A DNA stretch of 27,994 nt. It comes from Mitosporidium daphniae. Taxonomy: Eukaryota; Microsporidia. The position numbers were made by a program, and so were the translations under genes. Where the stretch lies: contig NW_013546162.1 of the NCBI RefSeq assembly GCF_000760515.2, positions 1-27,994 on the forward strand, given 5' to 3'. Shown one piece after another: positions 76 to 24,983 of the stretch; positions within the stretch are counted from its first letter, which is position 1; each line of letters begins with the position of its first letter. Below the pieces are notes generated by a model. That model saw only the letters and a list, made by a program, of their open reading frames with translations. It searched no databases and was not told the origin of the DNA.

Positions 76-1708
76 AATTCTTCGTTATCAACGGATTCGT
101 GCTCAGTATTGACATCTTGGTCTTGTTCGTTCGGACCGGCTTGATCTTGTTCTTTTGGGCCGGCTTGATCTTGTTCCATAACAGGCGAGACTTGGTCGTT
201 TAACAAGCTTTGCCCCGGTTCATCAGAACCGTCCCCAGAAACGCTTTCTGAATATTGGTCTGGAAGTGCAAATATGTACTGAGAGGCAATGGGCATTTCA
301 TCGTATCTATTTTTAGCTCTGAATGCGTTGAATACTTCATCTTCATCCGCATCGTTTAGCTCGTTCCCCTGGCTATCTGTAATCCGAATGATCCAGTCAT
401 CATTGGTATCGCCAAAAGAACGCACATCGTCAAGAAGACCGTAACACGAGACTTCCCAATGGTGCTCCTTGTTTGAAAGAGGCGGAGAAACTACATGCGA
501 ATGCAGGCTTCTTCGAGTAAGGTGATGCACCAGTCGTATTCGATCCCCGTTTCGAAGTGGAACAAATGGATCAAGATCGTGAGGCGCGCTGAGATTTCCA
601 GGCCACATGTTCCACCTGTATTGCTTCCTAAAGGGATCCGGGTATCGAGGCAAAACTATCCATTCATTGTTCAGATCGGAAAAAGGATACAATGTCACTT
701 GCTGCTGCTCAGAACCTTCTGGGTAAAGATGCGAGTGCGAGTGAAGAAAACTCTTTTGAGAAAAATGGCGGATAGTCACTATGCTTCCATATCCCACGGG
801 AGCGTTGGTCGGTGGGAGAATGTGGCTACCTTGCAGAGACTGCTGGAATAGCAAAGACATGGACGAGGCTCCTGGACCGGCCTTTGTCAGCATCTTGAAA
901 TGCATCCAGAAAGAGCCAACGTAGATTAGCACCGGGACAACAAGCAGGGCAAAAAATCTGGCCAAAAAATGGAGCGAGAAACGATTAATGGAAACTACTC
1001 GCGGGCTGCTGAACAGCTGCCAAAGATCAAACAGCGTGGCAAGACCAACGGTGGCCACAGTAAACAGACCTGCCCATTTACAACTGGAAGCGCATCCGAT
1101 GCAGATGCCTGTCCCCATCAAGAAGATCCACCAACCCGGTGAGAATGGATCCCTTCTCTTTTTCTGAAAATACATGTAGAAACAAATGGCAGCTGCAGAC
1201 GAAAATATAAGGTACGCGTCCAGAAAGACAAACCGAAATTGCGTTGTCAGTGCATTTTCGAACAAAACTAAAAGAGCGCCAAAAATCGAATATTCCACCT
1301 CAAGGCCCAGCCCAACACAAGTCAAAAACATCACGGGCACAAGCAGAGTGCCCAAAACGGCAGGCAGTAGCCGCAACCCAACATATGGAACATCTGCTTC
1401 CAAGTAATCGAGGCCAATGAGGTCGAAATTGAAATCTTCCGGAAGACCTAAAAGCCAGGAAAGCCCTGCAATCAGCATCTTGGCTCCGGGGGGGTGCACA
1501 TCCAAAAAAAAGGTGCCCTTTTGATATTGCTGTGCAAATCCGCCAAAATGGACCTCATCAAACCTAGCAACAATTAGAATACAGATTCCTACACCACAGA
1601 TGAAGGATGGCTCAACAATGCCAGCTTAAATATGGCAGCAATGCCGGTCAATACAATACAAATATAAAAGCTCTGAAATCCTTTCCCAGAACTTCCCTCC
1701 TTGGTCAT
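1..1708 (-). CDS. Protein O-mannosyltransferase (PMT family), partial at left edge
   Basis: Transfers mannose from dolichyl-phosphate mannose to Ser/Thr of secretory proteins in the ER membrane. Exons are 1593..1708 and 1..1563, joined across a 29-nt intron (1564..1592, GTAGGA...CTAG, branch-like TTCTAAT). Splicing creates the family signature HPSSVV-FDEVHFGGF, with the catalytic-loop DE pair at residues 41-42, followed by DVHPPGAKML. Several hydrophobic membrane segments follow. Two MIR repeats are visible: one with YGSIVTIRH, LHSH and YPEGSEQQQVT near residues 290-345, the other with GDRIRLVH and LHSH near 370-440. Where a third MIR is normally found, a long acidic Gln/Glu/Asp/Ser insert begins and runs off the window, ending in heptad repeats. 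The ATG at 1708 is the first in frame and gives a short cytosolic tail before the first membrane helix. The subfamily (PMT1/2/4) was not resolved. Confidence 0.93.
116..185 (-). repeat. 24-bp imperfect repeat coding for EQDQAGP(K/N)
   Basis: Two full units and a partial third code for the octapeptide EQDQAGP followed by K or N, in the same acidic insert of the PMT gene and just before the SEHESQV array. The repeat type differs from the neighbouring array, so the insert seems to grow by independent local duplications. Confidence 0.8.
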
Positions 1709-2155
1709 GATGGCGAGAATTCAAAACGACCTTTGATGCATGAAAGATGCAATGCACTTTATTTACCAGTTGGTGATCCACTATCGGCAACAGATGTCTT
1801 AAACAAGCGATCATCATTATCAATGATCGCCAAACAGATCATATTTCGAAAATTAAAATTACAGGCTAGCATTAAAATTAAACTTTGGCGCATTAACAGA
1901 ACAATTTGTCGATATCAGCTGATTGGATAATTTTATCCCAGCAACAGAATGCTAGGCGACGAAATGTATGTGCGCCAAATGGGTATTAGAAGCATGGTAT
2001 GGCTGTCCTCAGTAAAGTTAGCGAGCGGCGCAGAAGGTAAAGATGGATGTTTAATTTTTTGTTATTTCATGTTTTTTACGCAAAATGTGATGTTTAAATG
2101 TCTCTCTTCCCATTAGAACCCTTGTCGTTGCACCCGCACATTGTAAAGATCGCTA

Positions 2156-2166
2156 CCTAACCCTAA
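2156..2166. promoter_or_regulatory. Telomere-like (telobox) motif CCTAACCCTAA
   Basis: About two TTAGGG-type units on the minus strand, roughly 300 bp upstream of CDC25 and 450 bp upstream of PMT. In fungi, TTAGGG-type boxes in promoters can bind Tbf1-like factors; that role is inferred here. It could also act as the branch region of an unproven intron. Confidence 0.35.
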
Positions 2167-2206
2167 GACCATTTATCAGACTCGAGTGATTATCATCTCC
2201 GAACGT

Positions 2207-2327
2207 TCCTCATCATCCTCATCATCGTAATCATCCTCATAATCGTAATCATCCTCATAATCGTAATCATCCTCATCATCGTAATCATCCTCATAATCGT
2301 AATCATCCTCATCATCTCCATCATCAA
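2207..2327. repeat. Imperfect 18-bp/trinucleotide repeat (TCATCC/TCGTAA)
   Basis: Repeated CATCCTCATAATCGTAAT-like units occupy about 120 bp. The plus strand reading is interrupted by stops. On the minus strand the tract is open and would code for an Asp/Glu/Tyr-rich chain (DDYDYE units) from a stop at 2424-2426 down to a TGA at 2176-2178, but without an ATG. It is probably non-coding or UTR. A small spliced acidic protein cannot be excluded. Confidence 0.7.
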
Positions 2328-2464
2328 CACTGTATCTTATCTGTATCTGCCCAGCTGCTTGATTCTGTTGATAAAAAGATACATCCCTAATTTGCTTATA
2401 TAGTAATTCGGAACTTGATCTGCTTAATCATTTGCACAGATATATCGATCGATCAAGCGATCTA

Positions 2465-3977: not shown

Positions 3978-6240
3978 ATGAGCTCTGGGAGCTCATTGTC
4001 CAAGCCTCCTCTTGCGGCCAAAGACGCTGCCGCGTTTAAGTCGCTGCTGATGCTCTTTGAAAACAAGCTATACAAAAAGGCTCTGAAACAAGCCGAACAA
4101 ATCCTGCGTGCACATCCCGAACATGGCGGTATTTCCCCATTTTTATTGTAGAGACACTTGCTGTAAAGGGGCTGGTGTTGGCGCACCTTGCAATGGACTC
4201 CACATCCTCCACAGACAAAGATTCTTCTGCAGCCAAAAATGAAGCCGCGGCCAGGGTTACACCAGAGGTGGACCCGCTGGAGTTGATCAAGGCCGGAGTA
4301 AGACTTGATACAACATCGTTCATATGTTGGCAGGTGCTCGGTCTTTATCATCGTCTGAAACGGAATTTTGCCGAAACTTTACGCTGCTACAAAACTGCTC
4401 TTCGTTTCGAACCACATCAACCTACCATTTTAAGGGACTCTGCGCTTCTCCAAGCGCACGAGCGTCAGTTTGCAGCTCTTGTTGAGTCACGTAACATGCT
4501 TTTGAGGATCAACGCCAGTGAGGGTGGCGCTGCAAATGCTGGCCAAATGTGGCGTGCGCTTTCCATCGCCTATGCTATGGCCGGCCAGCCGGAGGCCGCC
4601 TTGCGCGCACTTGAGGCCTCCTTCGCTACAAAGGAACAGCAGCAAGACACTCACTGTGCCCCGGGGACGCGTTCAGAGTTGATGCGGTTTAAATGGAAGC
4701 TAGAGGCTCTCGCTGGCCACCCTACTACGGCCAGGGTCACTGATAATGTAAACATTGAGGACGCCCCCATTGCAGACGCGGACTTACAGGACGAGGCTGT
4801 TGCGCTATATAGCCCGGATGAAACCCTCCGAGCATTGGCTTGTTCACGGCGCCTTGAGCGCAATCCAGATTTGCCCGTCAGTTCGGCCTTGGTCGAGCAC
4901 CAGAATGCTGTTGTGGGGCACACTTCAGATGCATTGGCACTCGGTCGAAAACTAGAGGTTGCCGTCAAGACTGGCAACATCGAATCTTTTGGTCTTGTTT
5001 TCACTTCACTGTTGAATGAGGGTTTACTGGAGAGAGCCCCCATTTCTCTATTCAAGCTGGTGACCATCGCGGCGTTTGATCAGAAACCTTCGCACATCGA
5101 TGTGCGGACCATACACCAAACCATCTCGAATCTGCTTTCCGAACGCCAGTCATCACTTGCTACTGTGATTTTTCAAGCGCTACTACTGGACGCCATCGGA
5201 AACAGCATTGAAGCTCTCGGTCTGATTTCTAGCGCAATTGGCCCCCACCACCCCAAAGGCGTCGTTGCCGAGGGCGATACCCAAGTTTCTGTCGACAATG
5301 ACACCGTGAACGCTATTGCCCCGGCTACGGAAAACATTCATTTGCTTGTAGATGCCTTCACAGTGCGTGCCAAAATACACAAGGTATTTTATTTTGTTAA
5401 CGCTAGCACCTGGGACTGTATCGTGCAGCAGCAGATGATGCTATCGCGGCTTCAAAGCTTGCTTGTGGCGATCGTTCGCTCACGATATTTGCAATTCGGC
5501 ATTTGCTTCGTGCAGACAAAGTCTCCGAGGTGGAGCATATCCATCTTCCAATTCTTTTCAAGAAGCCTATGGAAGAAATCCGCGAACTTCAAGTGGCATG
5601 GTATCTCGTTCGTGCAGGCGAGGCATTTTGGCGCTTGGGACGCACCGATGAGGCTGTCGAGGCATGGTCCTTTGTCGCATTGTCCTTCCTTGGCACTTCG
5701 CTTGCTGATGATGTTTTTGATTTTCATGGCTATGCGCTTCGCCGATGCGCCCTTGTGGGGTACATGGAATTGCTCACGGCAACGCCGCCTTCCAAAGCCC
5801 CTATACTCCACAAACATCCCACCTGGCAGCGTGCAGCATGCAACCTGCTGCATGCTGCAATTGTGTCCACTAACAAAGACTCCACTGGAGATGCCATAAT
5901 TGATGGAGCATCATCCCGTTCAAGCTCTTTCCCCAGTTGTCAAACGAGCAGCTCAAAAACGACAACAAACGGCTCCGTCGTTGCAGACCAAATAGCAAAG
6001 CTCGTTCAAGAGCTCGCTCATTTTGAGCACGAGGCGTNCCCGTCGATACCGCCAAAATTGGCTCTACGCCGCCGGATTCTTCTTTGGCTATACGAGGATA
6101 ATGGACATCGCATCCTGCCGTTTTTGCGCACGGAACGCTTCCCTAAAAAACTCGCCACGCGCGTTGAACCCTTAATTTCTGAGCTACAAAAGCATGGTTG
6201 CGGCACGGGGCTCCTGCCCCTCATATTTACACTTGTCTAA
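3978..6240 (+). CDS. NAA15: N-terminal acetyltransferase A auxiliary subunit (NAA15/Nat1)
   Basis: Tetratricopeptide scaffold that holds the catalytic subunit NAA10 at the ribosome to acetylate protein N-termini. Exons are 3978..4128, 4152..5383 and 5407..6240 (738 aa; the family is usually about 850). Both introns are 23 nt (4129..4151 and 5384..5406, each GTATTT...TAG). Splicing restores family sequence: HG-ETLAVKGLVLAHL at the first junction and RAKIHK-HLGLYRAAADDAI at the second. TPR-like helices run throughout, for example WQVLGLYHRLKRNFAETLRCYKTAL. The C-terminal mark DVFDFHGYALRRCALVGYMELL matches the conserved DFH-Y-R segment of NAA15. A charged, Ser-rich region replaces the usual Lys-rich linker. 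One ambiguous base (6038) makes one residue uncertain. The gene converges on CorA with an 81-bp gap. Confidence 0.88.
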
Positions 6241-6321: not shown

Positions 6322-7623
6322 TCAGAACATGCGCGAGCGCCACGCAACATAGGCAAGGCATCCGAAAAGCCCAAACATCGTCATCATGACCAGAGCAAAG
6401 GGTCCCAGCTGCGTGATGCCGACACCCGGCTGCAGAGGCAACGGCACATTCATCCCCATGATGCCGGCAAGCAATGTCAATGGAAGGAAGATCACAGTAA
6501 AGACTGTCAGCCGTTTGACGACTTCATTCATCCGATTAGAGGCATCCGTTAGTTCGATCGATATTTGTGCAAGGTAGTTGGAGTGCGCCGTGTTAAGCGT
6601 ATCGCGAAAGTGTTCCAGAGACTGTCCCAGGGACAGTACATGGTCTTGTGCGTCTCGCATGTAAAGCAGTGTCCGTGGCGTGCCGCGTACCGGCACGGGG
6701 GCGCCTGTTCCGGGGGCCCCCGGGTATTTTGTTTGCCCCACATCACCAAGCAATTTGAGCCCGACAGACTTGAAAAGCTCGCGCTTTGGAAGCAGAATCC
6801 GTAGCAGCGCTGTCGTTGCCTTGCGTGCGATGCCGATTCGCNGGACCATGTCTGATTTGTCCGCCTGAGAAAGCAGCAGAACCAGATCATCGATGGAATC
6901 GACTTCAAACTCTAGCGCTTTGGTAAGGGGAATCAGTGCGTCTACAAAGTCGTCCAAAAGTGCATATAGGATCCAATCTGGCGAGGCAGGAGCCGAATTC
7001 GAGCCGCCGGTTGCAGAGATCGCTGGAGGGGCGAATGGATTGTTTGAAGCAATCGCAGCATCCAGGCGCCGCAATACGCGCGAGACATGGTGCGAAATAG
7101 GGCGTGGGTGCATCGAAATGATGCCCCGCTCAGAAATGCCAATGTAAATGTAGGCCGGGTCCACGGTGCTGCTTGTATCTCCGGCTGTGGCAATTGTTGA
7201 GACAACAATAAAAAGGTAATGATCAAACAGCTCGCATTTTTCGCGCGTATCCATCTCCACAATGTCTTCAATGGTAAGCGGGTGAAAGCCGCCTCCGGGC
7301 ACCATCGCCTGGCCACAGGTTATGATATCCTCCCTACTCGGAGAGGTCATGTCGATCCAAAAGGAGGCCTCTTCCGGCAACGTGTGTAGCGCAGACATGA
7401 GCCCAGTGCAGTCTTCAAAAAATTGAGCCTTTATGGAGTCCGAGTACAGCGTAAATCGTGGTTGCCCACCAAGATACGAGGAAATAGCGGTACGCCGACC
7501 GCCACTGGTCTTCCGATCCAAATAGTCGTCTGCCTGCTTCACGTTTGTACCTCCTCCGTTTCCATCTGTGAAGAGGCTCTTGGTAGGGTGTGGGCTCTGC
7601 TGGGGATTGGAGGAAGGATGCAT
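6322..7623 (-). CDS. CorA-type Mg2+ transporter (ALR/MNR2-like)
   Basis: Magnesium channel of the CorA superfamily. The 433-aa protein has a hydrophilic N-terminus and a soluble funnel domain with HPLTIEDIVEMDTREKCELFDHYLFIV, typical of eukaryotic ALR/MNR2-type CorA proteins. A long helix region ends in ISIELTDASNRMNEVVKRLTVFTVIFLPLTLLAGIMGMN (described by its key residues: the selectivity motif G390-M391-N392 at the end of TM1). A second membrane helix near residues 412-427 ends in a basic tail. Plasma membrane versus vacuole cannot be decided. The ATG at 7623 is the first in frame after upstream stops. One ambiguous base (6842) leaves one residue undefined. A telomere-like motif lies about 70 bp upstream. 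Confidence 0.92.
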   Translation of the reverse strand: MHPSSNPQQSPHPTKSLFTDGNGGGTNVKQADDYLDRKTSGGRRTAISSYLGGQPRFTLYSDSIKAQFFEDCTGLMSALHTLPEEASFWIDMTSPSREDIITCGQAMVPGGGFHPLTIEDIVEMDTREKCELFDHYLFIVVSTIATAGDTSSTVDPAYIYIGISERGIISMHPRPISHHVSRVLRRLDAAIASNNPFAPPAISATGGSNSAPASPDWILYALLDDFVDALIPLTKALEFEVDSIDDLVLLLSQADKSDMVXRIGIARKATTALLRILLPKRELFKSVGLKLLGDVGQTKYPGAPGTGAPVPVRGTPRTLLYMRDAQDHVLSLGQSLEHFRDTLNTAHSNYLAQISIELTDASNRMNEVVKRLTVFTVIFLPLTLLAGIMGMNVPLPLQPGVGITQLGPFALVMMTMFGLFGCLAYVAWRSRMF

Positions 7624-7695: not shown

Positions 7696-7707
7696 AGGGT
7701 TAGGGTT
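7696..7707. promoter_or_regulatory. Telomere-like motif AGGGTTAGGGTT upstream of CorA
   Basis: Two TTAGGG-type units lie in the 249-bp space between BRR2's 3' end and the CorA start, about 73 bp before the CorA ATG. A Tbf1-like binding role is inferred from fungal precedent. Nothing else in this gap was recognised. Confidence 0.4.
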
Positions 7708-7872: not shown

Positions 7873-10800
7873 TTAATGTTCCGGTTCGCGTACATAAAGA
7901 GCGAGCTCGTAAAGCGAGGGGGTCTCGCCCAGAGGAACAGCCGAAATCAGCGATTGCACTTGATCCGGGGTAAGCCCTAGCTGCCGTCGTATCACATCAA
8001 CAGGATCTGCTCGTCCAGGCTTGCAGCCCTGGCGCAGAGCTTGGACTAGGTCCATTGCCGCAAGGGCTGTGGACAAGTAATTGGCATCCTCCCCACAACT
8101 GCTCTTCAGTAAGCAAATGTCGACAACCGCGCTCAGCAGCGAAACGCCAAATTTGACGTCCAAGGGCCCAGTTGCGTTAATAAAATCAACGCATGGCACC
8201 CTGATGTGACCAGCAGCACACGTGACCGTTGCTTGGGACAGAATGGCAAGCAGAGATTTGGCCCTCGTTGTTGGTAAAATGTTCGGCCAAACCATGGTGC
8301 GCAAAAGCTCGTCGCTCAGCCCATAATGAGTAGCCACACGTGCAAGTGTGGCAGGGGCATGGTCTGCGTGAGATTCTTTCTGCTGTGCCTCCTCGTCCAT
8401 GTCTAGTGCGCTCTCAAGCGCCTCGGAAAGCCGCTCGGCAAGGACAATCTCTGAACGCTCTGTCAAATGGTAAAAGTTTGGATTTGCCCGCATCCGTTCA
8501 AGCAACCAACTGTGCTGACATATGTAATCCATAGCCGCCTGCAAGGTTGCTTCATCCCCAGCATTAGATGCGAGAAGTGCAGCTGGAAGTGCCATGGCTA
8601 GTGATGGCATCAGGACAGATTCTCCAGGGGACATCATCATGCTTGTCGAGAGACCTTGGCTCTCGCAACTAAAGAGCACCGGGCCCATAGTGGCAGGTGC
8701 ACCCATGGCTAGTCCCAATCCGAACATACAGGCATTTTCCAACACGGCCGCCGTTTGCCATGCAATGATTTGCTTCAATCGGCAAATTTCGGTGGAGGCG
8801 ATGACCTCTCCTACCATCGAAAGTGGGGTGATGAGAATCGGGAGAAGCCCTCTATTGAAAGCCGTCCATCCAAGCGGATCGGCAGCATATGCGATGCCAG
8901 CTGCAAGCCATTCGAGATAATCGCATTTGACATCAGCCCCATCGCCAATCAATTCTGCGATGGCATCGGCATCAGTAGCCAAGGAAAGCTTGTTGCAACG
9001 AACATGGCGCATCAATGTGGCGGCCAGCGCGTTTGCAGCGTCCTCATCAGCGACGCAGAGTAACACGCTATCACGACTCGTTTGTGGGCCATTGTCTTCG
9101 ATGAGCGGAAGCAATGGTAAAAAAGCACTGTTTTTCTCTTCATTCTGGTCAACTCTCCAAAAGCGCACAACAGATGCCTGCGGTCGGCGATGCGGCAGGC
9201 GGAGAAGTCGGCCAGGGCTTGTCCCAACCCAGCGTCCAAGCGATCGTAATGAGGGCATGGTGGCAGGGGCCACAAGTAGCGACACAGAAGCATCTGCCAG
9301 AGCATGTATTTCTGTAAGCAAAAGCTCTTGGTACAGCATTTGAGACTCACTTATCACCCCCCATTCCATCACCAAGCGGACGGAAAATGGGAAAGAAGAC
9401 GCAGATACAGCACGAAGTAGTCCAAAAAGGAACGTGACTTCGCCCACTGCGACTACAGGCTTTTGGTGATCCGCATTTTCAAACAAGGAGGCAAGGGCCG
9501 ACGGAAGCGAATGCTTCTCATCCAAGAGCAACTGCCCGGGTTCAAAGAGCGCAGCCAAAGTGCGGCCCAACGCCACGCGCCTGCCACGCCATGGTGATGT
9601 GGCCAAAACCAGTTGCCTTTTCACTTTAGGTGTATCATCGATAAGAGCTACCTCTACAGGCTGTTCGCAAGCAATGGTCAAGCCTATGCCAAACTCCAGC
9701 AAACGCACCATAGTGGCTGCATCGGCAAGCAGCGAAAACGGTAACCCCACCACCAATGGCGAACACTCCAATCTTAAAAGCCACAGAACATGCCGCTCTA
9801 CGGCACTGAGCATGACGGTATGATCAGGGGAAGTGGTATCGGTTTTCATGCAATCCGTAACATTGGCCTGGCACATATAAAGGGCGCGAACCTGCTCCAA
9901 AGAGACTGGCGCAAGCTGTTCGATGCGCTTTAGTGGCACTTCCTCATCCGCAGGGAGTTGCAAGGCACGGAAAGAAATAGGTAGCCTCACGTCGCAGTGA
10001 TGAAACCTGTCTGAAAGCACGTGAATCATAATGGCTGGCGGCACAGGACGACCAATGGGTACACGAAGAGTGGCTGTTGTCACAGTTTCACGTAACAAGA
10101 GCCGTTGGTGGTGCAGGATTTTCTCGTCCTCCAGGTCGGTCAGAAACAGCCAAAATGCAATCGAATGGGATTCCGTACGCTGGATGGCAACATCAACGCG
10201 AAGAATATCTTGTGTCAAGGGGATCGCAGAGGCTGTGATCTCAATGCTCGGCAACACGCTCAAATCAATCTTCTGCGGGATCAAGGCAGCTAATTCACCG
10301 GGAGTCAGCAATCGTAGCTGTGCCAGGTTCAATTCGCGACGTTCAAGACGCGCAAGATCTGCTGCTGCGGTGGTTTCTTTGTCAAGCAGCTGGATGACTG
10401 GCGAACAAGTGGGCCAACACCGCAGTTCTACTGAGCGCGCAAGCAGCAAGGCGGTACGGGCCACTGCAAACAGACCCGCTCCACCGCCTCGATTTCCTCT
10501 CTCCATCACCGCAATTTCAAAGATAGCGCGAAGTAATCGCGGAGCTATTGCCGCCACATGAGCAGCATCCATTGCCATAGGCCCATCCTCCAATCCAACG
10601 CGACTGATTACGGCCTGCAGAAGCAATGCTGCTTTGTGTGTACGCTCCATAGGCACAGGTAGAAGCGAGGCAAGGCGATCGAGCGCCCCTTGTTCTTCCT
10701 CGCGGATTCGCGAAAGGGCGGCAAGCTCCATGGTGCGTGAAAGCAAAGAAAGCACTCGTTCATATGCCGATACGGCAGCAATCGATGCTCTTTCGCCCTG

Positions 10801-13800
10801 TGGGCGGAGCTCATGGAGGATAGTCCGAATGGTGGCTGGTGCTATATAGAAGAAAGACGCAATCTCGCCCAGTGGAGTTGCGTGAAACAACGAAGAGGAC
10901 GCTGTGGCGCCCTCCACTAGTCCAAGGAGGCGAATCAGCGCCATAGATGCTGACGCCAGCGTCACAATCCACTCTCGGGGATCCCCCCCTTGAGGGTCTA
11001 TCCCAAGCGCAGCTGGGTCGTCACGAACCATTTGCCCCAAAAACAATCGATCTGAAATCCATGCACATGCGTCGTCCATACTTCGTATAAGCGTAGAACG
11101 AGCAACTTCCGCAGCAAGGTGAGGAAGAATTCGCATCATCATAGAACAGGAGGAGGAAGAAAAGGAAGAAGCCGATGATGTGATGCCGTCGGCTTCCCCA
11201 TCTGTCGCTGCCGTGGTGAGCATCTGAGAAAGCACCGGCTGTGCCGTGACAGCTACATACCGTGAGAGGTTCTCGTGCGAGGTCAGCAGCAATGCCTCGC
11301 CATGGCGGTCAAATTGAGGCCGCCCGGCACGCCCCCACATTTGAAGCAAGTCTTGGGAGCTTAGCAATGTCCATGCAGGGCCACTTCCTGATTCCGTGCC
11401 TGGATCGTATATTTCGGTGCCCTTAATGATGACCGTGTGTGCGGGCAAGTTAACGCCCCATGCCAATGTGGCTGTGGAGACGAGCACAGAAAGCTGTCCG
11501 CTGCCAAAGAGCCGCTCAACAGTACCGCGGTCTTGCCGCGAAAGTCCAGCATGATGGATGCCGATTCCCGCCGGCATCAGCTCGCCAAGCTCTGCCGAAT
11601 CGAAAGCAGAATCGTTAGCATCTTCGGCGTCATTCCCGCCCGCGCGATGAAAAAGAGCAAGAAGGCCACGAGTGGCAGCTCCATCGCGCAGCAGCCGTGC
11701 CGTACGTGCTGTTTCCCGCCGCGAGTGCACAAACACAAGGATAGGGCCCTGCGGCAATCGTTCAATGACCTCTTCAAGCAGAATCTCATTCATCTTCGCC
11801 ATGCGCTTGGATACCTTTCGTTCCATGACACCATAAAAGGAAAGGGATAAGGGACACGGGCGCCATTCGCCGCCAAAGCAATGAACGCGGGCTCGAAGCC
11901 AGCTACCCACTTGCTCAGCATTTGGAAGCGTGGCTGAAAGCGCCACAATACGCGCCTCGCCCAAAGAACGCGCTACGATCGCCTCCAGCGCAGTACCTCT
12001 TGGTGCATCTCCAATCAAATGCACTTCGTCTACGATCAGCAAATCAGGGATCAGTGCCGCCGGTTTTCTGGAAACGATGTCCCACTTTTCTGGCGTGGCC
12101 ACTATTAGACGGCATGAGGCAAAGCCTTGTTCGGCGAGAAGAGCACCTAAACCACCTCCCGATTCTCCTGTGAGTTCGGAGATGGCGAGTTCGTTGGAAT
12201 CCCAAAGCCCACTTTCCAAAAAGCGGGATCGAAACGTAGCCGTAATTTCACTTACAAGCGCACGCATAGGGGCTATGTAAACGGCAATGGTGGACCGCTT
12301 GCTTGCGACGGTCTCGCCGTCAGAAGATTCTATAATCGTGCTGCAGCCTGGAAAGTCGATTTTACGCCCACAAGCAGAGCCAAACAGGCGTAACAAGGCA
12401 AGGATGGCAATTCCGGTCTTTCCAGCACCAGTGGGCGCAGAGACCAATAAATTTTGATCCGAAAAAAAGGCGTGCGCAAGTACGGCAGACTGAATGCGAT
12501 TGAGGGTCGGTTGGCCCTCCCAGGCCCCATGGGTCCATGAGGGGAGAGCCTCTACAACGCAAAGTGAAGGAGCATCGCGAACGTGAGCAGGAATCGCCGG
12601 AGGTGCTGGAACGTGAATCAGCTCATAGCCAGCATGAGCACGTCGCCAAGAACCTGGCGGTAGTGGCAGTCTACGCGCAGCAAGCGTCTGCGCGTCGCGG
12701 GCATCACGCGCCATCGCCGCAAGTGTTTCCGCTGACGAGCTAGAACTTGATTTGGAAGGGGCAGTCGATGCTATTACAGAGGACGCGTCGACAGTAGAAT
12801 TTTTTTCAAACGGCGCTACCGCAGATGTCGTCCTTGGGGTATCAACAAGCGCTGCAAGAACAGCGCCCTCTGGGCCTTCAGCGATGAGCTGCTGAAGAAT
12901 AGCTTCTTTGGCCTCGCCATCTCCGCCGAGAGGGTCTGCCTCTGCAAGGGCTATCCCCGCCACCAATGCCATACGATTGCTCACTAAAAGCGACAGAAGC
13001 TCAAATGGATTTTCGTGGCGTGAATGGTGCTTGCACAATTCTTTAAGGATCCGGCCTTCGAGGATCCAACCCTCGAGGGTACGGTCTTGCAACAAGGCGA
13101 GAACAGCTTTAGATCTTGAGTGAGAAACCCAGGCATCTTCTCCTGGCAAGGAGAGCAGTCGTTGTAGATAATGTACATCGATATCTCGAATGTCTATTCT
13201 CGGAATAGAACTTTTTGGCAGGTGCATGTCTCCTTGTTCCTCTTCAGAGGGTACCACATGCGACAAGTAGAAGGGGTCGATTTCCGTTTCCTCATCGCCC
13301 CTAAATTGCCCGATATTTTCTTCGGGATCTTCCTTGATATCTGGGAGATACTGGCTTGCTTCGCCGCCGCCGTCATCATCATCATCATTGAGGAGATGGT
13401 CTGGTTCCACTACAGTTAGACCGAAAGATTCCTCTTCTGCCTCTGCAGTATTTGCTTCCGTAGATGTCGATGCCGAGGCATTCCAGTCTACCAGGCGTTT
13501 TGAGAGTGCAAGAAGCTGCGAAAATGCAAGACTTTCCATGGGGCGCATTAACAGGGCCTCCAGAGAGCTCCTCTGCTCAAGCTCACGTAGTTCGGAAGAG
13601 CAGAGAATGATCAGAGCCTCGTCAAGAAGCGCCCGTCCCATTTCACCCGACTCTTCTTCGGCAAGGTCCATCACCAGCTTTAGCATGCGCTCGTAAATGG
13701 AGCGAGTCTCCTGAGTTCGTGGCCGATATTTTAGCGTCGCAAGCTCACTTAGGGTCAAAGAAGAAGATTGTGATAGCGCATCGCTCATATGACCGCCACC

Positions 13801-14295: not shown

Positions 14296-15210
14296 ATGAA
14301 ATTGAATTTGTATCTCACCTCATTTCTTGCTACTGCATTGGCACTTTCGAGCGTCGGAGAGGCCAAAGAAGAAAGACTTTTTGGAATCGAAACGATCCCC
14401 ACGTATAATGGCCGCACCCAATACGTTTACATTTATGGCCCCAACAAGCGTTCCCGCTGTGAGGCCGTCAAGGCATGCAAAGCTCTTTCTGGCGGCCATC
14501 TTGCCAGCATTCCATCTCAACATGTTTTGAAATATCTGGAAAAGTTTGTCAAAAAGAGTCCCGCATTTATCGGATCATGGGAGGGAAATGATTACCAAGG
14601 TGCTGCTATTGCAATCTACCCCGGCGGAGCCATTGCAATTGCCAACCCCGAACTTGGCGATTTTATCTGCGAGGTACCTTTGGATGGCGCGTGTACGTGC
14701 TCAGAAAGCTCAAGCACTGAAGACTTGGAGACTTCCACTACATGGTGGTCCACCACGGATAGCAGCGAGCCCACTACATGCTCGTCCACTTCAAGCGACT
14801 CTACCAGCTGCTCAACTAGCTCTAGCACCAGCTCAACTAGCTGCAGCACCAGCTCAAGCGACTCTAGCAGCACTACCTGCACGAGCTCGACATCATCAAG
14901 CAGCTGCCCATTCTACTTTAGTTCTGACATTCAAGAGTCAACTTCCACCTGCGATCATTCCTCATATAACTCGTGCGATTTGTTCGCTCCGATTAACTTT
15001 TCCTTTTCAGCCGACTCCTCGTCTGAACCTTTTTGTGATATGAACTTTGGCTATAAGAACGCTGGAGACAATGCAATCGGTAATGATGACATGCCAAGCC
15101 CCCCCGTAGATAATGATCCTGATAGCACCCTCTCCACCATATCTGAAAATTCTAGTGAATATGTCCCAGATGTGGAAGAATACTATAAGACGTGGCCACT
15201 TTATGAATGA
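14296..15210 (+). CDS. Secreted C-type-lectin-like protein with Ser/Thr/Cys-rich stalk
   Basis: The 304-aa protein starts with a clear signal peptide (MKLNLYLTSFLATALALSSV, cleavage probably after GEA). Residues 30-128 resemble a C-type lectin fold: C55 and C61 in RCEAVKAC, GGHLASI at 67-72, AFIGSWEG at 90-97 in place of WIGL, and DFICEV at 122-127. The paired penultimate cysteine and the usual calcium-binding residues are not visible, so sugar binding is uncertain. Residues 133-200 are almost all Ser, Thr and Cys in CSTSSS-like units, like a mucin stalk and a likely O-mannosylation target. The acidic tail ends EEYYKTWPLYE with no GPI signal or membrane helix. A secreted wall, adhesion or infection-structure protein is plausible but inferred. 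Confidence 0.72.
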   Translation: MKLNLYLTSFLATALALSSVGEAKEERLFGIETIPTYNGRTQYVYIYGPNKRSRCEAVKACKALSGGHLASIPSQHVLKYLEKFVKKSPAFIGSWEGNDYQGAAIAIYPGGAIAIANPELGDFICEVPLDGACTCSESSSTEDLETSTTWWSTTDSSEPTTCSSTSSDSTSCSTSSSTSSTSCSTSSSDSSSTTCTSSTSSSSCPFYFSSDIQESTSTCDHSSYNSCDLFAPINFSFSADSSSEPFCDMNFGYKNAGDNAIGNDDMPSPPVDNDPDSTLSTISENSSEYVPDVEEYYKTWPLYE

Positions 15211-17497: not shown

Positions 17498-19206
17498 TTA
17501 TTTGAGCTTTCGGTACAAAAGAGCGGTACCAAGTATTCCGGCAATTCCGCAGGACACTGAAACCGCCAAGATATTGTCTTTAAAAAGGCTTCCAAACCAA
17601 TCCAATGCCTTTCCGCGCGACGCCACAGAAATATCTTTTGCATGGGCAACAAAAAGTGTGATCGGAGCATCAATGGATGCCCCGGAGCTCGATCCCAGTA
17701 TCATTTCGATAAGAGAAACCAGGTCGTCGTCATTAAAAATGGGTACAAGATCATTCTCGCTGTCTTTGAATGATATTGAAAACGGCTCGTCAAGGCAAAG
17801 CTTTTCTTTGACGGCCAAAACCAATGCCGAGTGAAGCGGCTGCTGAATGTGGACATAAACAACATTGCTGCCATTGCGGACTTTGAAGGACCATCTATTG
17901 CCCTTTGAAATTTTGGAGCTGGCATTGGTTTCTAGCGACGTGACGCTGGCAGTATCATCTTCCGTGAACTCATCCTGAATGTGAGGCGAAGAATTGTCTG
18001 TAACGCATGAAGATGGGGCCGAAAAAAACCCTTCAAAATCAATCTCCTTTTTCATCTACAAATAAAACAGTGCGAAACAAAGATACCTTTCCAATGACAT
18101 GGATGCAAATATCCAAAATGTCAATCAGGGATGAATGGCCATCCTCCTTGATCACAGGTAGATGCAAGTATTTTCCTGCATACATTTTCTCTAATGCCAA
18201 TAATAAGGAAGAATCTAAAGAGATGGTTTCTGGATTTGGCGTCATCACGCGGGTAAGGGTCGTCCTCAAAGGATCCAGCTTGCATGAGATTACGCGGCGA
18301 ACAATGTCCTTTGATGTGAAGATGCCGATAAGAGATCCCGATTCATCCAATACCAAAACAGCTGTGCTTGACGCTGCTTTCATTGTGATGGCTGCGCTTC
18401 TAATCGTTGTCTTTAGCAAGCACGAGGCAGACGTGTTCAAAAGTGATGAGGCAAAGATACCGGCAACTTCTGGGGTGGAGAGCTGCTTTTTGAGCAGCTG
18501 AGTAAAGCCCATCAACTGCTCAGTGCCTATCGTCGTTATGGACATGCAAAATACCAGCATAATGGTGGTCCTGGGTGACATGCCCAACTGCAGAAGTCAG
18601 GCTACGAGTTAGCTCTTCCGATTTGCGTAATTTCTCAATGGCACCTCGCATTGCAAGCGTAATATCCAACACGCCCTCGATTTCTCCAAACGCCGAAACA
18701 ACAGGCAAGTGGCGAAAGTGCTTATCAGTCATGATTTGAAGCGCATCATTCATCGAGGTGCCCGACTGTATGGTAATTGGGTTGGGGGTCATTATGGAGG
18801 AAATCAGCACGATTGCTGGGTCGAGCCCTTCTGCAATCACTTTGTAAGCAATGTCTTTGTCGGTGACAATTCCAATCAAAACAGAGGGCACCGTCGTCTG
18901 CACATCTTCGACAACTAGAAGCGAAGAGGCCCGCAGTGATGCCATTTTCTGGCATGCCTGTAAAACTGTGCTTGTGTGCGGAACGATAACAGATGGCTCC
19001 AGCGCATCTGCCCTGGTGATGGAAGACGCATTGCTTGCAAAGCCTTTTGAAGCGAATTTCTGAGGTGCCTGGGACGCCCGGTTTGCCGGCATTCCCTTTT
19101 TTGCGCCCTGAGAGGGCGCGAAATCGGAGGGTGAAGCAAGGCTTGTCTTGCGGCGATTGCCGAGCAGATCGACTGGCTCTCTCGCTGACCCCGCTGTGCT
19201 TGTCAT
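17498..19206 (-). CDS. CBS x4 - PB1 - tail-anchored protein (fungal Mug70-like)
   Basis: Exons are 18555..19206, 18087..18526 and 17498..18055 (549 aa). The introns are 28 nt (18527..18554, GTATTT...ATAG with CATAAC) and 31 nt (18056..18086, GTATCT...GTAG). The protein has a basic N-terminus, then two CBS pairs (about residues 70-195 and 225-360; ITRADALEPSVIV, VTDKDIAYKV and GIFTSKDIVRRV are typical), then a PB1 domain (about 417-482, with FSISFKDSENDLVPIFNDDDL as its acidic OPCA-like part), and a single C-terminal helix ILAVSVSCGIAGILGTALLY followed by RKLK. CBS pairs usually bind adenine nucleotides. The tail suggests anchoring in an organelle membrane. The same architecture is known in fungi as CBS-and-PB1-domain proteins, whose function is poorly known. 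The AATAAA overlaps the stop. Confidence 0.9.
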
Positions 19207-19822: not shown

Positions 19823-21430
19823 ATGACGATTAACGAGGAATTTTTAGGAAGAGATTCCGGAATCGAAAGCCGCAATGTTTATCGCAATGCATCGCCCGCT
19901 GTCTTGTATGAAGAGGCCCTCACACACGAGTCCGGTACATTTATTACATCTACCGGAGCACTTGTTACAAGTTCAGGCTCAAAAACGGGTCGCTCGCCTT
20001 CTGATAAACGCATTGTAAAGGAGTCCAGTACGCAGGATGACATTTGGTGGGGCCCCGTCAACACAGCCATGAGCGAGCATGTTTTTGACATCAACAGAGA
20101 AAGAGCGGTCGATTATTTGAACACAAGGACTCGCCTGTTTGTCTTTGATGGGTTTGCCGGGTGGGATCCCAAATATCGCATAAAAATTCGTGTAATTTGC
20201 TCCAGCGCCTATCATGCGCTATTTATGCGGAATATGCTGATTCGCCCAACAAATGAAGAGCTGTCCCGATTTGGCAAACCCGATTTTACAATTTTCAATG
20301 CCGGCGAGTTTCCTGCAAACAAATTTACGGAGGGCATGACTTCAAATACCTCCATCGCAATCAACTTCAAGGCCAGGGAAATGGTTGTTTTGGGCACACG
20401 ATATGCCGGTGAAATGAAAAAAGGCGTTTTCACCGTAATGCACTACTTGATGCCCAAGGCGGGGGTTCTTTCACTTCACTCCTCTGCAAATGAGGGAAAT
20501 GATCCGTCGGACGTGACGCTCTTTTTTGGATTATCTGGAACCGGAAAAACCACGCTATCTGCCGACATTAATCGCCGCCTTATCGGCGATGATGAACATT
20601 GTTGGAGTGACAATGGGATCTTCAACATTGAGGGCGGCTGCTACGCCAAGTGCATCGATCTATGCCGCGAAAAGGAGCCGGAGATCTTTGATGCGGTGCG
20701 GTTTGGAAGTGTGCTTGAAAATGTCGTTTTGGACCCGCATTCGCGAGTCGTTAACTATGGAGATAAAAGCTTCACCGAAAATACAAGATGCGCCTATCCC
20801 ATTGAGTATATCCCCAATTCCAAGATCCCATGCATCGCTGGGCATCCGAAAAATCTTATTTTACTCACATGCGATGCTTTTGGGGTGCTTCCCCCGGTCT
20901 CTAAACTGACCTCAACTCAGGCAATGTACCACTTTATTTCCGGCTACACGGCAAAGATTCCAGGAACGGAGCAAGGAATCTCCTTGCCGACACCAATATT
21001 TTCTGCCTGTTTTGGCCAGCCATTCTTGGCTTGGCATCCCGTCAAATATGCCAAAATGCTTTCAGAAAAGATGAGCAGGCACAATGCTGACGCCTGGCTT
21101 ATAAACACCGGATGGTCTCAAGGGCCATATGGCATCGGGAAGAGAATACCGTTGGCCTGTTCTCGTGCAATCATTGACGCCATCCATTCGGGAGAGCTGT
21201 CCAAGCAAAAATACACCACATATCCCGTTTTCAACCTCCAAATTCCTACCGGTGTCTCCAAGGTGCCTTGTGACATACTTGACCCCCGAAAAGTGTGGTC
21301 CAAAGCCAATCCGATCAATGTCGATGAGGCCATTGTAAATGTTGCCAAACTGTTTGCCGATAACTTTTCCAAATATGCCCAAGATGCCGGCGATGAGATC
21401 CGTGCAGCTGGGCCAGTGATTTCGGCATAA
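19823..21430 (+). CDS. PCK1: Phosphoenolpyruvate carboxykinase (ATP)
   Basis: Converts oxaloacetate and ATP to phosphoenolpyruvate, CO2 and ADP, the committed step of gluconeogenesis. The 535-aa length is typical. Key motifs are [23 protein letters not shown] near the N-terminus (given by its key residues TG and GRSP-DKR), the P-loop [11 protein letters not shown] at residue 236, the metal-binding [15 protein letters not shown], and the substrate segment [14 protein letters not shown]. The C-terminal part with [16 protein letters not shown] is also intact. It is the ATP-dependent type of fungi, plants and bacteria, unrelated in P-loop to the GTP enzyme. The frame extends seven codons upstream with TTG; ATG 19823 was chosen. 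No intron is seen. AATAAA is at 21437-21442. It converges on MDM10 with a 51-bp gap. Confidence 0.98.
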
Positions 21431-21477: not shown

Positions 21478-21483
21478 TTTATT
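21478..21483 (-). terminator. AATAAA overlapping the MDM10 stop codon
   Basis: The stop TAA (21484-21482) continues into TAAA, forming TAATAAA, so the probable polyadenylation signal starts inside the stop codon. The plus-strand PEPCK signal lies only about 40 bp away in the convergent space. Confidence 0.5.
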
Positions 21484-22640
21484 AAAAATCCAGCTGTATC
21501 ACCAGCGAGGGACGGCAAACGGTGATTTTTGGGAACGTGCAGATCATCGAAACGGTCAAAAAGTCCAAAACAGAGGAAATCTTATATACAAAGGAGGTGC
21601 CTGCACATTCAGAATAGCATGCACAAAGGTAGGAGGATGGCGGAGGCGATGCACTCTCGTTTACATTCGGTGGTTGCGCTACGCAATGCGTTAGTGCTTG
21701 TCATCGATACCTGATTTGCATATTTCGACTCCGGTTGCAAAGTTTGACTCCAAGCTGTGCACGTTAAAGTCAAACCTTGAAGACAGCTTGAGGTTTTTTA
21801 AGCGTGGCAGAGGGATCCCGGTCGAGTATGTAGACGATAGATGTCCCAGAAACGGATTGCACGCGACAATTAGGCTCGAATTGGAGTCCACAATGGCTCT
21901 CAGAACAGTGCCCACTTGCAAATAAGGTAACGTTAAAAATACCTCCGCCAATTTGGTCTTTCATTGAAAAGTATGCCTCGCCACCCATTGAGAACTCAAC
22001 CGAGCTGTATTTCTTAAAATGGAAAACACCCCTGATGCCGCCAATATGGCTTCCAGAGTTGTCGTATTGAAAAGAAGCCTCGGAATATATTGGAAGGCCG
22101 AAGGGTTCATTGATGTTGAAAAAGGATTGAATGGTGGAGAGCTCTTTTTTGGAAAAATTTAACGATGTATTAACTTGCAACAAAACTTTCGGGTTGATCA
22201 GAAGCAGGCTCTTGGTATTTACTTTGCAAAGCGCTTTGGAGGAGGACAGTGCAAACGCCCACTTTGGAAATGCCGGAAAGAACCCTAAAATCTGAAAAAA
22301 GCCAAAAAACGCGGTACCCTTTGCAGAGGATTGCTGGTGGTGTGCGACAAATGCGACGCAGAATTGATATTCGACGTGGTCAGCAAAAAGGACGGACAAA
22401 GAGACGGAAGCAACGTAAATTGCAGCAAGGATCGGGGCGCTATGGATGCAGTGGAGACTTTTACACACAATGGGGAAGATGGAACCTGAAAGTCATATAG
22501 ACCTAGAATGCGTAAATAGCGCTAGCCTCACTTTTGGACTCTGTACACAATGCCAAATAGAGCTTGTTGTTATGGATTGAAGAGAACGGTTTCAGTTCAG
22601 GGGCCGCCGAATACAAAAAGTTATCCAGGACAAAATCCAT
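21482..22640 (-). CDS. MDM10: Mitochondrial outer-membrane beta-barrel MDM10 (ERMES), five exons
   Basis: MDM10 links mitochondria to the ER in the ERMES complex and helps sort outer-membrane proteins. Exons are 22532..22640, 22318..22502, 21943..22291, 21711..21914 and 21482..21678 (347 aa, shorter than the 400-490 common in fungi). The introns are 29, 26, 28 and 32 nt; the last has a clear CACTAAC branch. Splicing gives a family-like N-terminus (NNKLYLALCTESKSLYDF, PSSPLCVKVSTASIAP), the segment GGEAYFSMKDQIGGVGTVLR, and the diagnostic NPFLGHLSSTYST followed by SSRFDFNVHSLESNFATGVE. The C-terminus SLVIQLDF resembles a barrel beta-signal without its glycine. A further 24-nt GT...AG stretch at 21601..21624, in frame and stop-free, may be a fifth intron, since it codes for an odd Cys-rich patch. 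AATAAA overlaps the stop. Confidence 0.88.
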
Positions 22641-22656
22641 CGTCACCGGTAAGTAA

Positions 22657-22672
22657 AGTTAAAATTAAAATC
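22657..22672 (-). promoter_or_regulatory. A/T core motif upstream of MDM10
   Basis: AGTTAAAATTAAAATC (plus-strand sense) lies 17 nt before the MDM10 ATG, in the 84-bp gap after the RRM gene. It is of the same type as the motifs before NAA15, RING and the 26174 gene. Confidence 0.45.
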
Positions 22673-22724
22673 CAACTGGCGCTGCCGCAGCGATAAACAA
22701 TTAAAAAGTTCAATTTATTGGGAA

Positions 22725-23210: not shown

Positions 23211-23528
23211 AAAAATATTAATTACAACAGTGGTGCCCCTTGGTTTATAATGCGATGTGATTCGCATTAAAGCATTTTTAAATTTTTGTTTTATTTCCTG
23301 CTCAACTTTAAAATATAGTGCATTAATACGGTGCATTGACAAAGTGCATTAATACGCTGCATTGACAAAGTGCATTAATACGCGGCATTAATAGAGGGCA
23401 TCAATACGCTGCATTAACAGAGGGCATCAATACGCTGCATTAACAGAGGGCATCAATAGAGTGGCACAGGCAGTACATGTTGCAGTACATTACATGGATG
23501 CAGACTAAAGTTTAGCGATAAAATCTGA
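23211..23528. other. Intergenic region upstream of the RRM gene
   Basis: This 318-bp gap holds the 26-bp repeat array described separately and an A/T motif (AGCATTTTTAAATTTTTG, 23271-23288) about 60 nt before the RRM start. I see no gene in it. Confidence 0.6.
23318..23455. repeat. 26-bp tandem array built of 13-bp GCATT half units
   Basis: About five imperfect 26-bp units, each made of two 13-bp halves of the type GTGCATTAATACG and GTGCATTGACAAA. The first two units keep AAAGTG junctions and the last three GAGGGCATC junctions, which suggests duplication in two steps. There are no spacers, so it is not CRISPR-like. It lies 110-240 bp upstream of the RRM start. Confidence 0.85.
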
Positions 23529-24167
23529 TCAAATGTAAAGCCGCCTTATTTTTCTAACATGGGATCTTTGGCGACAAAGGGGGCAAAGAGGCTGCCGCTC
23601 CATCGCAGCCAGCAAGCAGGCCATGCAAAAAACATGACCACATTCTGTTGCTGCAGGCTCTACCAACACATCCATGCAAATTCTGCACTGTGGATTGTCT
23701 GAATGTTGCCCGTGGCCGCGGGGCGGAGATTTTGTCAAGTCTTCAACAATTCGCTCATCGGTGAGATCAAACATGGTATGGATATCTGAATCATGAAATG
23801 CTTTTTTGGTGTTTCTTCCGATTGAAGCAGGCAAAATCGATAGTTCGCCCATATCAGATTGATCGGTCAAAAATGTTATCTCTGGATTTCTTCTGTCAGC
23901 ATTAGGTCGTTGAGACCTTCTGTGATTTGACCTGCTTGAGCTTTCTAACTGGTCATTTGAAGTGGATGTCTCTGAATGGCTTAGGATCTCTAATACCTCC
24001 GGTTCAGAGCCACCACCGCCATCTTCACCATTGGCGCCATCATCGCTCTCATCAGAAAAAATATACACAATATTTTCCTTCAACGAGGCCGTGTTGAAGG
24101 CCTTGAACTCCCGTGCGATAGAACTGGTGAGCACGGCATTTTGTTTTCCTGCAGTGTCATCTGTCAT
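23529..24167 (-). CDS. RING E3 ligase with SUMO-interaction-like motifs (SLX8/RNF4-like)
   Basis: A 212-aa protein with a C-terminal C3HC4 RING: C161, C164, C176, H178, C181, C184, C195, C198 (CRICMDVLVEPAATECGHVF and CPLCRQ), ending RKIRRLYI much as RNF4/SLX8 RINGs end in an aromatic-Ile. The N-terminal half is acidic and disordered and carries hydrophobic cores beside acidic runs that look like SUMO-interaction motifs: IVYIFSDESDD (33-43), VLEIL (57-61), ITFLTDQSD (97-105) and FDLTDE (133-138). This layout is that of SUMO-targeted ubiquitin ligases, which ubiquitinate poly-SUMO proteins in the nucleus. RING identity is certain; the STUbL role is inferred. It sits 72 bp downstream of an E2 gene on the same strand. 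Confidence 0.85.
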   Translation of the reverse strand: MTDDTAGKQNAVLTSSIAREFKAFNTASLKENIVYIFSDESDDGANGEDGGGGSEPEVLEILSHSETSTSNDQLESSSRSNHRRSQRPNADRRNPEITFLTDQSDMGELSILPASIGRNTKKAFHDSDIHTMFDLTDERIVEDLTKSPPRGHGQHSDNPQCRICMDVLVEPAATECGHVFCMACLLAAMERQPLCPLCRQRSHVRKIRRLYI

Positions 24168-24196
24168 GCCAGAATTAAAGCCCTCTACAAGATGAT

Positions 24197-24216
24197 AAAA
24201 TTTAAATTTTAATTTT
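24197..24216 (-). promoter_or_regulatory. A/T core motif upstream of the RING gene
   Basis: A run combining AAAATTTAAATTTT and AATTTT lies 30-50 nt before the RING ATG, within the 72-bp gap after UBC8. Confidence 0.45.
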
Positions 24217-24239
24217 CTTAAACATTCGCTTCATAATTT

Positions 24240-24983
24240 CTAAATCTCATCCGAGTCGGAAATTAGCGACGACACCGAGCTAATATCATCTTCATCTGAC
24301 ACCAAACGCCGATTGCATTCGATTTCGGAGCCTTTGTCATTTCCGGCACCTGGAAAGGGGCTCAGTTTGTCGTTTGCTGGGTACATATCTGGCCTGGCAT
24401 ATTTTTTTATATACTCTGGAACAGTTAGCAGAGCGAAGCGCACCTTTTACTTGGTTTTCATATTTGATAGAGTCCCGGAGCAATAGTGCAGCGGCTTCCC
24501 CGTTAAGAGGATCCGAAGGATTTGGGTATCGAAGCAACTGTGGAAGGAAAACATCGAAAATATTTATCATTCCTAAAATAAAAGAAACACGCCAGTACCA
24601 AACATGGGGCTCCACGTTTGGTTGATCACGTCCAGACAGACGGTTCCACTTCTACAAAATAGGTTACCATACCGTACATTTCATCGATATTTGGATGAAA
24701 GATTCTGTTGACAAATCCGATCGAAGGGCTTTTGTACGGATATTGGTCTGGTATTTCGACCCGGACCTTCCATATGCCAGACTCAAAGGGCGCTTGAAAA
24801 TGACATGCAAAATATCTCCTACTCTCGCTTGGGCCGCTGAATTTTACATGGAATTCTTGCACATTATTGTTAATCAATTCTATTTCGTAATTGCTCATCA
24901 TCCTATTGCAGTTGGTGAGAACGAGCCGGATCTTACAGCTTCATCACATCAGCCTCGATTCTTTTCCTGAATGTATTCCTCAT
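24240..24983 (-). CDS. UBC8: Ubiquitin-conjugating enzyme UBC8/UBE2H, six exons
   Basis: E2 that in yeast works with the GID/CTLH ligase. Exons are 24937..24983, 24823..24902, 24678..24792, 24599..24651, 24444..24572 and 24240..24415 (199 aa). The introns are 34, 30, 26, 26 and 28 nt. After splicing the match to UBE2H is continuous: [30 protein letters not shown], the HPN motif in FHPNIDE, catalytic Cys86 in [33 protein letters not shown] and VKEYIKKYA. The acidic Ser/Asp tail ([13 protein letters not shown]) is also typical. The 30-nt intron (24793..24822, GTAGGA...CAAG) is a multiple of three without stops and would be missed by frame analysis; removing it restores the family spacing exactly. 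The start lies only 70-163 bp from DHFR, divergent. Confidence 0.96.

Follow-up and report, generated by a model that had tools for sequence, protein, structure and literature searches.

Introns in five genes of one contig

The contig NW_013546162.1 of the microsporidian Mitosporidium daphniae (27,994 bp, contig C106 of the sampled assembly, hereafter the window) carries five conserved genes, PMT, NAA15, CBS-PB1, MDM10 and UBC8, whose reading frames are broken by 14 segments of 23-34 nucleotides (nt), all of the form GT...AG. The organism is treated as an early-diverging microsporidian (PMC7017984) and has retained a restricted mitochondrial genome (PMC12534020). A first-pass annotation made from the sequence had proposed these segments as ultrashort introns, and a direct check of the letters finds all 14 exactly where it placed them, with lengths, in its order of listing, of 29, 23, 23, 31, 28, 32, 28, 26, 29, 28, 26, 26, 30 and 34 nt. 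Its tally of donor sites, GTATTT four times along with GTATC, GTAGGA, GTAC, GTAAGA, GTGAGG and GTGCGC, is likewise correct. Once the segments are removed the five reading frames are free of internal stops, and the spliced products, each of which is identified by Pfam, are a PMT frame open to the contig end and proteins of 738 (NAA15), 549 (CBS-PB1), 347 (MDM10) and 199 (UBC8) aa. If retained, six of the 14 introns would themselves contain the start of a stop codon, and in the remaining eight the frame would meet its next stop 4-490 nt beyond the acceptor. Alignments to solved homologues are gap-free across 10 of the 14 junctions (UBC8 5/5, PMT 1/1, NAA15 2/2, MDM10 2/4), with the two MDM10 junctions in this count covered by weakly aligned stretches (28.8 and 4.4 bits). 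Removal thus restores a conserved protein by homology in 10 of 14 cases and by frame restoration alone in two, and the remaining two, both in CBS-PB1, are seen through a deposited protein. A single length out of 14 is divisible by three (UBC8 intron 2, 30 nt), but a search that relies on broken frames is biased against such lengths.

The gene for the protein O-mannosyltransferase PMT (1..1708, minus strand) runs off the contig end and contains one intron; its product matches Pfam PMT (222 bits) and MIR, and aligns with yeast Pmt1 (chain 6p25_A) at 278.9 bits. The intron (1564..1592, minus strand; 29 nt, phase 2, GTAGGA...TAG) would bring in a stop if retained, and the spliced protein is gap-free against Pmt1 over SVV/FDEVHFGG, the slash marking the junction. 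Two tandem arrays lie in this region: one of 21-nt units in the tail of the PMT gene (1..80) and one of 18-nt units at 2212..2316.

NAA15, the NatA auxiliary subunit, is encoded at 3978..6240 on the plus strand (Pfam NatA_aux_su) with two 23-nt introns, both GTATTT...TAG: intron 1 (4129..4151, plus strand, phase 1), which was also found ab initio, and intron 2 (5384..5406, plus strand, phase 0), which is also called by the trained splice-site model described below. Both junctions are gap-free against 5nnp_A, where they are covered by aligned stretches of 87.1 and 35.9 bits. The 738 residues of the spliced protein are collinear with, and equal in length to, MDAP_002653 of a newer annotation, located on a 275,546-bp contig, from which they differ at two positions, one of these being an N in the window. 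Both NAA15 introns are removed in MDAP_002653, so that these 23-nt introns are already present in a public annotation. An improved 5.83-Mb M. daphniae assembly of 2025 was annotated with BRAKER and funannotate (PMC12449221), and the MDAP_ annotation appears to belong to it. A second line of evidence comes from a relative, whose protein P0243 (European Nucleotide Archive, ENA; 32,446-nt contig) is 56% identical to NAA15 and carries insertions exactly at both intron sites: 1) 10 residues (30 nt), with G-M at the start and I/E at the end; 2) 12 residues (36 nt), beginning with V and ending with Q. Both sets of edges are compatible with GT...AG, and we read these insertions as putative conserved ultrashort introns that were translated through by an open-reading-frame caller. 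A scan of viral contigs gave no match to the DNA of the relative behind P0243. Another protein, P0242, is from a different source and begins downstream of intron 1; at intron 2 it reads through the same NAA15 residues, and at residue 311 it agrees with the newer annotation and differs from the window.

Among the papers searched we found no description of intron lengths in Mitosporidium, though such lengths may be stated in the M. daphniae genome paper of 2014, the paper on microsporidian introns of 2019 or the Amphiamblys paper of 2017; the word 'intron' was not found in the main text of the 5.83-Mb assembly paper (PMC12449221), nor in that of PMC12558613, although one 'introns' is counted for the latter.

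The CBS-PB1 gene (17498..19206, minus strand) codes for four Pfam CBS stretches and a PB1 domain, and its spliced product is 99% identical to the deposited hypothetical protein DI09_62p90 of M. daphniae. Intron 1 (18527..18554, minus strand; 28 nt, phase 1, GTATTT...TAG) has the identical junction in the deposited protein and was found ab initio. Intron 2 (18056..18086, minus strand; 31 nt, phase 0, GTATCT...TAG) is an intron in both versions, and it is the acceptor that is uncertain: the trained model picks the TAG of the first-pass annotation, and DI09_62p90 fits an AAG 9 nt further, for a 40-nt intron. These two acceptors within 18047..18086 are a candidate for alternative splicing or else an annotation slip.

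The gene for the mitochondrial outer-membrane protein MDM10 (21482..22640, minus strand; stop codon placed by eye) matches Pfam MDM10 at 61 bits and 7btx_L at 33.5 bits. Its four introns, all on the minus strand, are: 1) 22503..22531 (29 nt, GTGAGG...TAG), with a stop inside if retained, gap-free in the very weak 4.4-bit stretch; 2) 22292..22317 (26 nt, GTACCG...CAG), placed by frame restoration and lying in the same stretch near a small gap, for which reason it was not counted as homology-supported; 3) 21915..21942 (28 nt, GTATTT...AAG), gap-free across the junction in the 28.8-bit stretch; 4) 21679..21710 (32 nt, GTATCG...TAG), beyond the aligned part, placed by frame restoration and with a stop inside if retained.

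UBC8/Ube2H (24240..24983, minus strand; Pfam UQ_con 130 bits, 8pmq_E 217.5 bits) contains five introns, all on the minus strand and all gap-free against 8pmq_E: 24903..24936 (34 nt, GTAAGA...TAG), 24793..24822 (30 nt, GTAGGA...AAG), 24652..24677 (26 nt, GTACGG...TAG), 24573..24598 (26 nt, GTACTG...TAG) and 24416..24443 (28 nt, GTGCGC...CAG). No correctly spliced M. daphniae UBC8 occurs among the 120 best of 4897 database matches, and the searched public annotations therefore probably lack the five-intron gene or contain it in broken form.

Several other genes of the window are single open frames, namely those for a 2,051-aa DEAD-box/Sec63 helicase (7873..14028), an ATP-type phosphoenolpyruvate carboxykinase (19823..21430) and DHFR (25147..26013); some long genes and DHFR are thus intronless, whereas the short UBC8 and MDM10 genes carry five and four introns.

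Length class and splice signals in a genome sample

The sample drawn from the M. daphniae assembly (4.66 Mb in 147 contigs) comprises 310,891 bp, made up of the window, 20 stretches of 10 kb, one 50-kb stretch and ten short loci. Genes were found with a phase-specific Markov coding model, which has no splice-site model and allows intron lengths of 12-120 nt equally; it was used in place of a codon-only gene finder that was dropped as too weak, its long false introns having fused genes. Splice-site matrices were then learned on the sample for GT-AG introns with a length limit of 60 nt, and a second matrix run was started from the 14 window introns. One row, a CorA 'intron' at 6820..6846, was removed before the branch and acceptor counts because the model cannot read an N base.

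Among the matrix-free junctions GT-AG occurs 29 times at 25-29 nt, against a mean of 7.9 (standard deviation, sd, 3.0; maximum 15) for 40 control dinucleotide pairs, and 21 times at 30-34 nt, against 8.2 (sd 3.2; maximum 16); at 35-120 nt it rises above the 40 control pairs in no bin. The trained matrices yield 132 GT-AG calls within the 60-nt limit, with 113 at 23-35 nt and two at 20-22 nt, against 10-43 (mean 21) at 23-35 nt for 15 control pairs trained alike. The run seeded with the 14 window introns gives a similar picture (127 introns, of which 116 measure 20-40 nt and 108 measure 23-35 nt). The length distribution is therefore a narrow peak with no longer class up to 120 nt, which is the pattern of a genome-wide class of ultrashort introns. 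Outside the window 111 introns are predicted at 20-40 nt in 283 kb, beside the 14 in 28 kb of the window itself; taking the 111 less the control rate and scaling to 5.8 Mb suggests some two thousand introns genome-wide as a rough lower figure. Lengths divisible by three account for 25 of 90 introns, and 24 of these 25 contain an in-frame stop, the detector hardly seeing stop-free introns of such lengths; two introns of this latter kind are implied in the relative by P0243.

There are 43 predicted genes with short introns in the sample. From 22 of their protein sequences four, picked because they were recognisable and hence not a random sample, were compared with solved structures: valyl-tRNA synthetase (ValRS; six introns), the PP2A scaffold subunit PP2A-A (five), the proteasome subunit RPT5 (two) and trehalose-6-phosphate synthase (TPS; two). 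All 15 junctions (24-35 nt), predicted before the homology check, fall inside regions aligned with PDB entries. Those of RPT5, TPS and ValRS are gap-free, while the PP2A-A alignment is weaker and three of its five junctions have a small gap at most a few residues away. A 66-nt 'intron' called in TPS was rejected, as it left a 13-residue hole in the alignment and a refit restricted to 60 nt gave a 27-nt intron at that place.

In the matrix-trained set the donor consensus is AAG/GTATNT, with about 1.25 bits of information over +3 to +6, and the 3' end shows enrichment of A at -8 and -7 followed by pyrimidines; the acceptor is TAG in 107 of 125 introns, AAG in 10 and CAG in 8. The first-pass annotation had also described CTAAC- or TTAAC-like branch sites about 10-15 nt from the AG. 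A branch-like signal does exist, but mostly closer to the acceptor: the top enriched class is yTnAy with the A at -6 to -9, which 21 of the 56 matrix-free introns in the 23-35 nt range contain, compared with 7.6 expected from shuffles (z 5.4), though CTAAY at -10 to -14 is above expectation as well (8 vs 1.6). We rely on the matrix-free value, given that the z of 7.4 in the trained set is inflated by an acceptor matrix that covers -8 to -3. The commonest branch-like hexamer occurs in 6 of 125 introns. The branch-site element is seen in the class as a whole and is not assignable in every individual intron.

Spliceosome components and interpretation

Genes for the U1, U2, U5 and U6 small nuclear RNAs (snRNAs) all score above the Rfam gathering score. 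The U1 gene holds ACTTACCT and the 5' end of U1 carries the canonical ACUUACCU, the U2 gene contains the canonical GTAGTA (GUAGUA), and the U6 gene contains ACAGAGA. The second-step factors Slu7 and Prp18 are both present above the cut-off; in yeast such factors matter less where the branch site is close to the acceptor. The Prp18 gene lies in a segment found in triplicate (C56:50046-50384, C80:2158-2496 and C118:10369-10707), and of the three 3,339-bp loci two are identical and the third differs at one base, as might result from a recent segmental duplication or from assembly redundancy. The U2AF65 model gave 30 matches, none above the cut-off, and also matched in two bacterial controls; two of the sub-cut-off matches, on C78, stand in the order expected of U2AF65.

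Together these observations leave us in very little doubt that the 14 segments are ordinary U2-type spliceosomal introns, cut down to a narrow length class, about 23-35 nt, which accounts for most of the introns called in the sample (113 of 132). Homology, the newer annotation, the insertions in the relative, the length distribution in the sample, the branch-like signal and the snRNA genes of the major spliceosome all support the first-pass reading, and the segments would be excised from RNA. In the mechanism that we propose, U1 would pair with the loose AAG/GTATNT donor and U2 with the degenerate yTnAy branch site, whose A mostly lies 6-9 nt from the intron end, after which U6, U5 and the second-step factors would join the exons at the TAG. 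We infer intron definition as the mode of recognition, intron length serving as a cue in its own right, and a functional floor at about 23 nt.

Several points weigh against this interpretation. Splicing is predicted here from DNA and protein sequence, and the relatives counsel caution: short introns of other microsporidia can splice poorly and those predicted from motifs are often unconfirmed, with 1 of 85 motif-predicted introns seen spliced in Trachipleistophora hominis and several short introns of Encephalitozoon cuniculi spliced at less than 15% (PMC4654818). The gene finder is of low sensitivity, recovering exactly 4 of the 14 window introns, so that the length histogram derives from a biased subset; about 21 of the 113 trained calls are expected from the control pairs, by which roughly one in five may be false; and at 20-24 nt the matrix-free junctions show no GT-AG excess (7 vs 7.5 in the controls). 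The branch motif with its A at -6 to -10 is found in 56 of 125 introns, that is in only part of them, and yTnAy is weak in the 30 introns of the homology-checked genes (14 in the window and 16 outside; 9 vs 3.9 expected, z 2.8), which makes the branch assignment of any single intron uncertain. Searches for the SF1-HH and UPF1 zinc domains gave no match, with no positive control to calibrate them. The MDM10 introns at 22292 and 21679 are backed by frame restoration only, and the second CBS-PB1 acceptor is disputed as described above. Finally, the length claim reaches up to 120 nt, the longest intron that the model allows, and in PP2A-A a 74-nt call at the end of a cut stretch became a 56-nt call on refit, lying past the aligned part.

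These last points bear on a mixture, in which the short introns are real and a minority of conventional longer ones has been missed. We consider this unlikely: beyond the 120-nt ceiling and the remaining 56-nt call, some junctions of 40-120 nt were indeed called, but GT-AG shows no excess at 35-120 nt, and these longer calls carry yTnAy at the chance level (8/79 vs 7.8 expected) and little preference for TAG (25/79, against 41/56 in the 23-35 nt set), for which reasons they were set aside as mostly artefacts. The one case that was traced, the 66-nt call in TPS, proved to be a short intron plus a small exon.

It is very improbable that errors of sequencing or assembly caused the frame breaks, or that the five genes are pseudogenes, with 'introns' fitted to these breaks. 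The assembly is admittedly imperfect, having two N bases in the window (6039 and 6842) and, apart from the N, one NAA15 residue that departs from the newer annotation. Yet five conserved housekeeping genes would each need one to five errors, every one of them mended by a GT...AG segment of a single length class, which errors would not leave behind; moreover, the newer annotation gives the same spliced NAA15, P0243 has insertions at the same sites, P0242 from another source reads through the same residues at intron 2, and the excess in the genome sample is specific to GT-AG and to 25-34 nt. The alternative of assembly errors, which the first-pass annotation itself had raised, is hence not borne out.

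Two further explanations have next to no likelihood. The segments might be skipped by ribosomes, as in the translational bypassing of the 'byp' elements of some yeast mitochondria and of T4 gene 60, which are of a similar size range, but the GT...AG ends, the AAG before the donor, the TAG acceptors, the branch-like signal and the major spliceosome favour splicing. Minor-spliceosome (U12-type) introns share the short distance from branch to acceptor, but the donors depart from the U12 consensus, the recognition sequences of U1 and U2 are canonical, and the U12 model gave no match in a search that had no positive control.

Gene models of this genome will be wrong wherever the minimum intron of the gene finder is longer, a risk illustrated by the lack of a correctly spliced UBC8 among the best database matches and by the deposited CBS-PB1 acceptor, which differs from that of the trained model. 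Mitosporidium would also offer a fungal-side system for the minimal RNA needs of a conventional spliceosome.

Among the remaining features of the window are a 26-nt tandem unit in about five copies (23312..23466) upstream of a gene for an RRM protein, a possibly secreted, Ser/Thr-rich protein of 304 aa (14296..15210) whose N-terminus looks hydrophobic by eye and which lacks a Pfam match, and short telomere-like stretches, identified by eye inside the contig and away from its ends, at 2157-2166 (CTAACCCTAA), 7697-7707 (GGGTTAGGGTT) and 15286-15300 (GTTAGGGTTAGGGTT).

Comparison with known intron systems

Among microsporidia, the introns of E. cuniculi measure 22-76 nt and are of the GT-AG type, with splicing confirmed by RNA-seq (PMC3629993), and all 13 of those counted in one survey carry a TAAYTT branch motif (PMC2483917). 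The 3' end in Mitosporidium, with A at -7 or -8, pyrimidines and TAG, looks like the same arrangement. However, the introns of E. cuniculi number about 37 and follow relatively strict motifs at donor and branch site, as against an extrapolated two thousand or more in Mitosporidium with loose donors, and the canonical microsporidian state of very few introns with strict donor and branch motifs is thus not what is found here. According to Irimia and Roy, strict species share one branch hexamer in 66-100% of their introns and others in less than 30%, with a gap between weak- and strict-motif species that lacks intermediates, and with weak motifs where introns are very short (PMC2483917).

In light of this we tentatively suggest, as a possibility rather than a settled expectation, that Mitosporidium preserves an early stage in the reduction of microsporidian introns, at which these have shrunk to a hard floor of about 23 nt, their branch site drawn in to 6-9 nt before the acceptor, and are still numerous and loosely marked, intron loss and strict motifs having come later. 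Shrinkage would then have preceded mass intron loss on the microsporidian line; it is equally possible that it was confined to Mitosporidium. If the former is true, the layout of E. cuniculi, with the branch next to the acceptor, would be a relic of the ultrashort stage, and Mitosporidium would stand on the weak-motif side directly beside strict-motif kin. Given its place near the microsporidian base, the order of shrinking, losing and then hardening motifs becomes directly testable if most of its introns are 23-35 nt long, numerous and loosely marked.

Ultrashort introns as such are known elsewhere, and the Mitosporidium case is itself partly contained in public annotations. Introns of about 25 nt occur in Paramecium (PMC5014332) and of 15-16 nt in heterotrich ciliates (PMC10245619), and the ciliates resemble Mitosporidium in their narrow length class, weak motifs and GT(A) donors (PMC5014332, PMC2483917, PMC10245619), although their lineage is unrelated to it. 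Chlorarachniophyte nucleomorphs have introns of 18-21 nt and mikrocytids of 16-17 nt, in both cases very uniform and tiny and set in reduced genomes and intracellular settings (PMC10245619), whereas the 23-35 nt introns of Mitosporidium exceed these in length and are less uniform. Those of mikrocytids are, moreover, conserved in sequence and their spliceosome is strongly reduced, in contrast to the loose motifs of Mitosporidium and its retention of U1, Slu7 and Prp18. The comparison with nucleomorphs and ciliates drawn in the first-pass annotation is a fair one, and the Mitosporidium introns lie near the lower size limit but not at it, with introns of 15-21 nt on record for heterotrich ciliates, mikrocytids and chlorarachniophyte nucleomorphs (PMC10245619). 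Usual fungal introns are likewise GT-AG and U2-type, with several per gene in some genes, but at a mean of, for example, 63 nt in Cryptococcus neoformans (PMC8476143) they are about twice as long, and the sample contains no excess at 50-70 nt. What distinguishes Mitosporidium is that a lineage adjoining the intron-poor microsporidia combines numerous, loosely marked introns with a uniform length class of 23-35 nt, a combination that would fit a stage at which introns had shrunk but were not yet lost.

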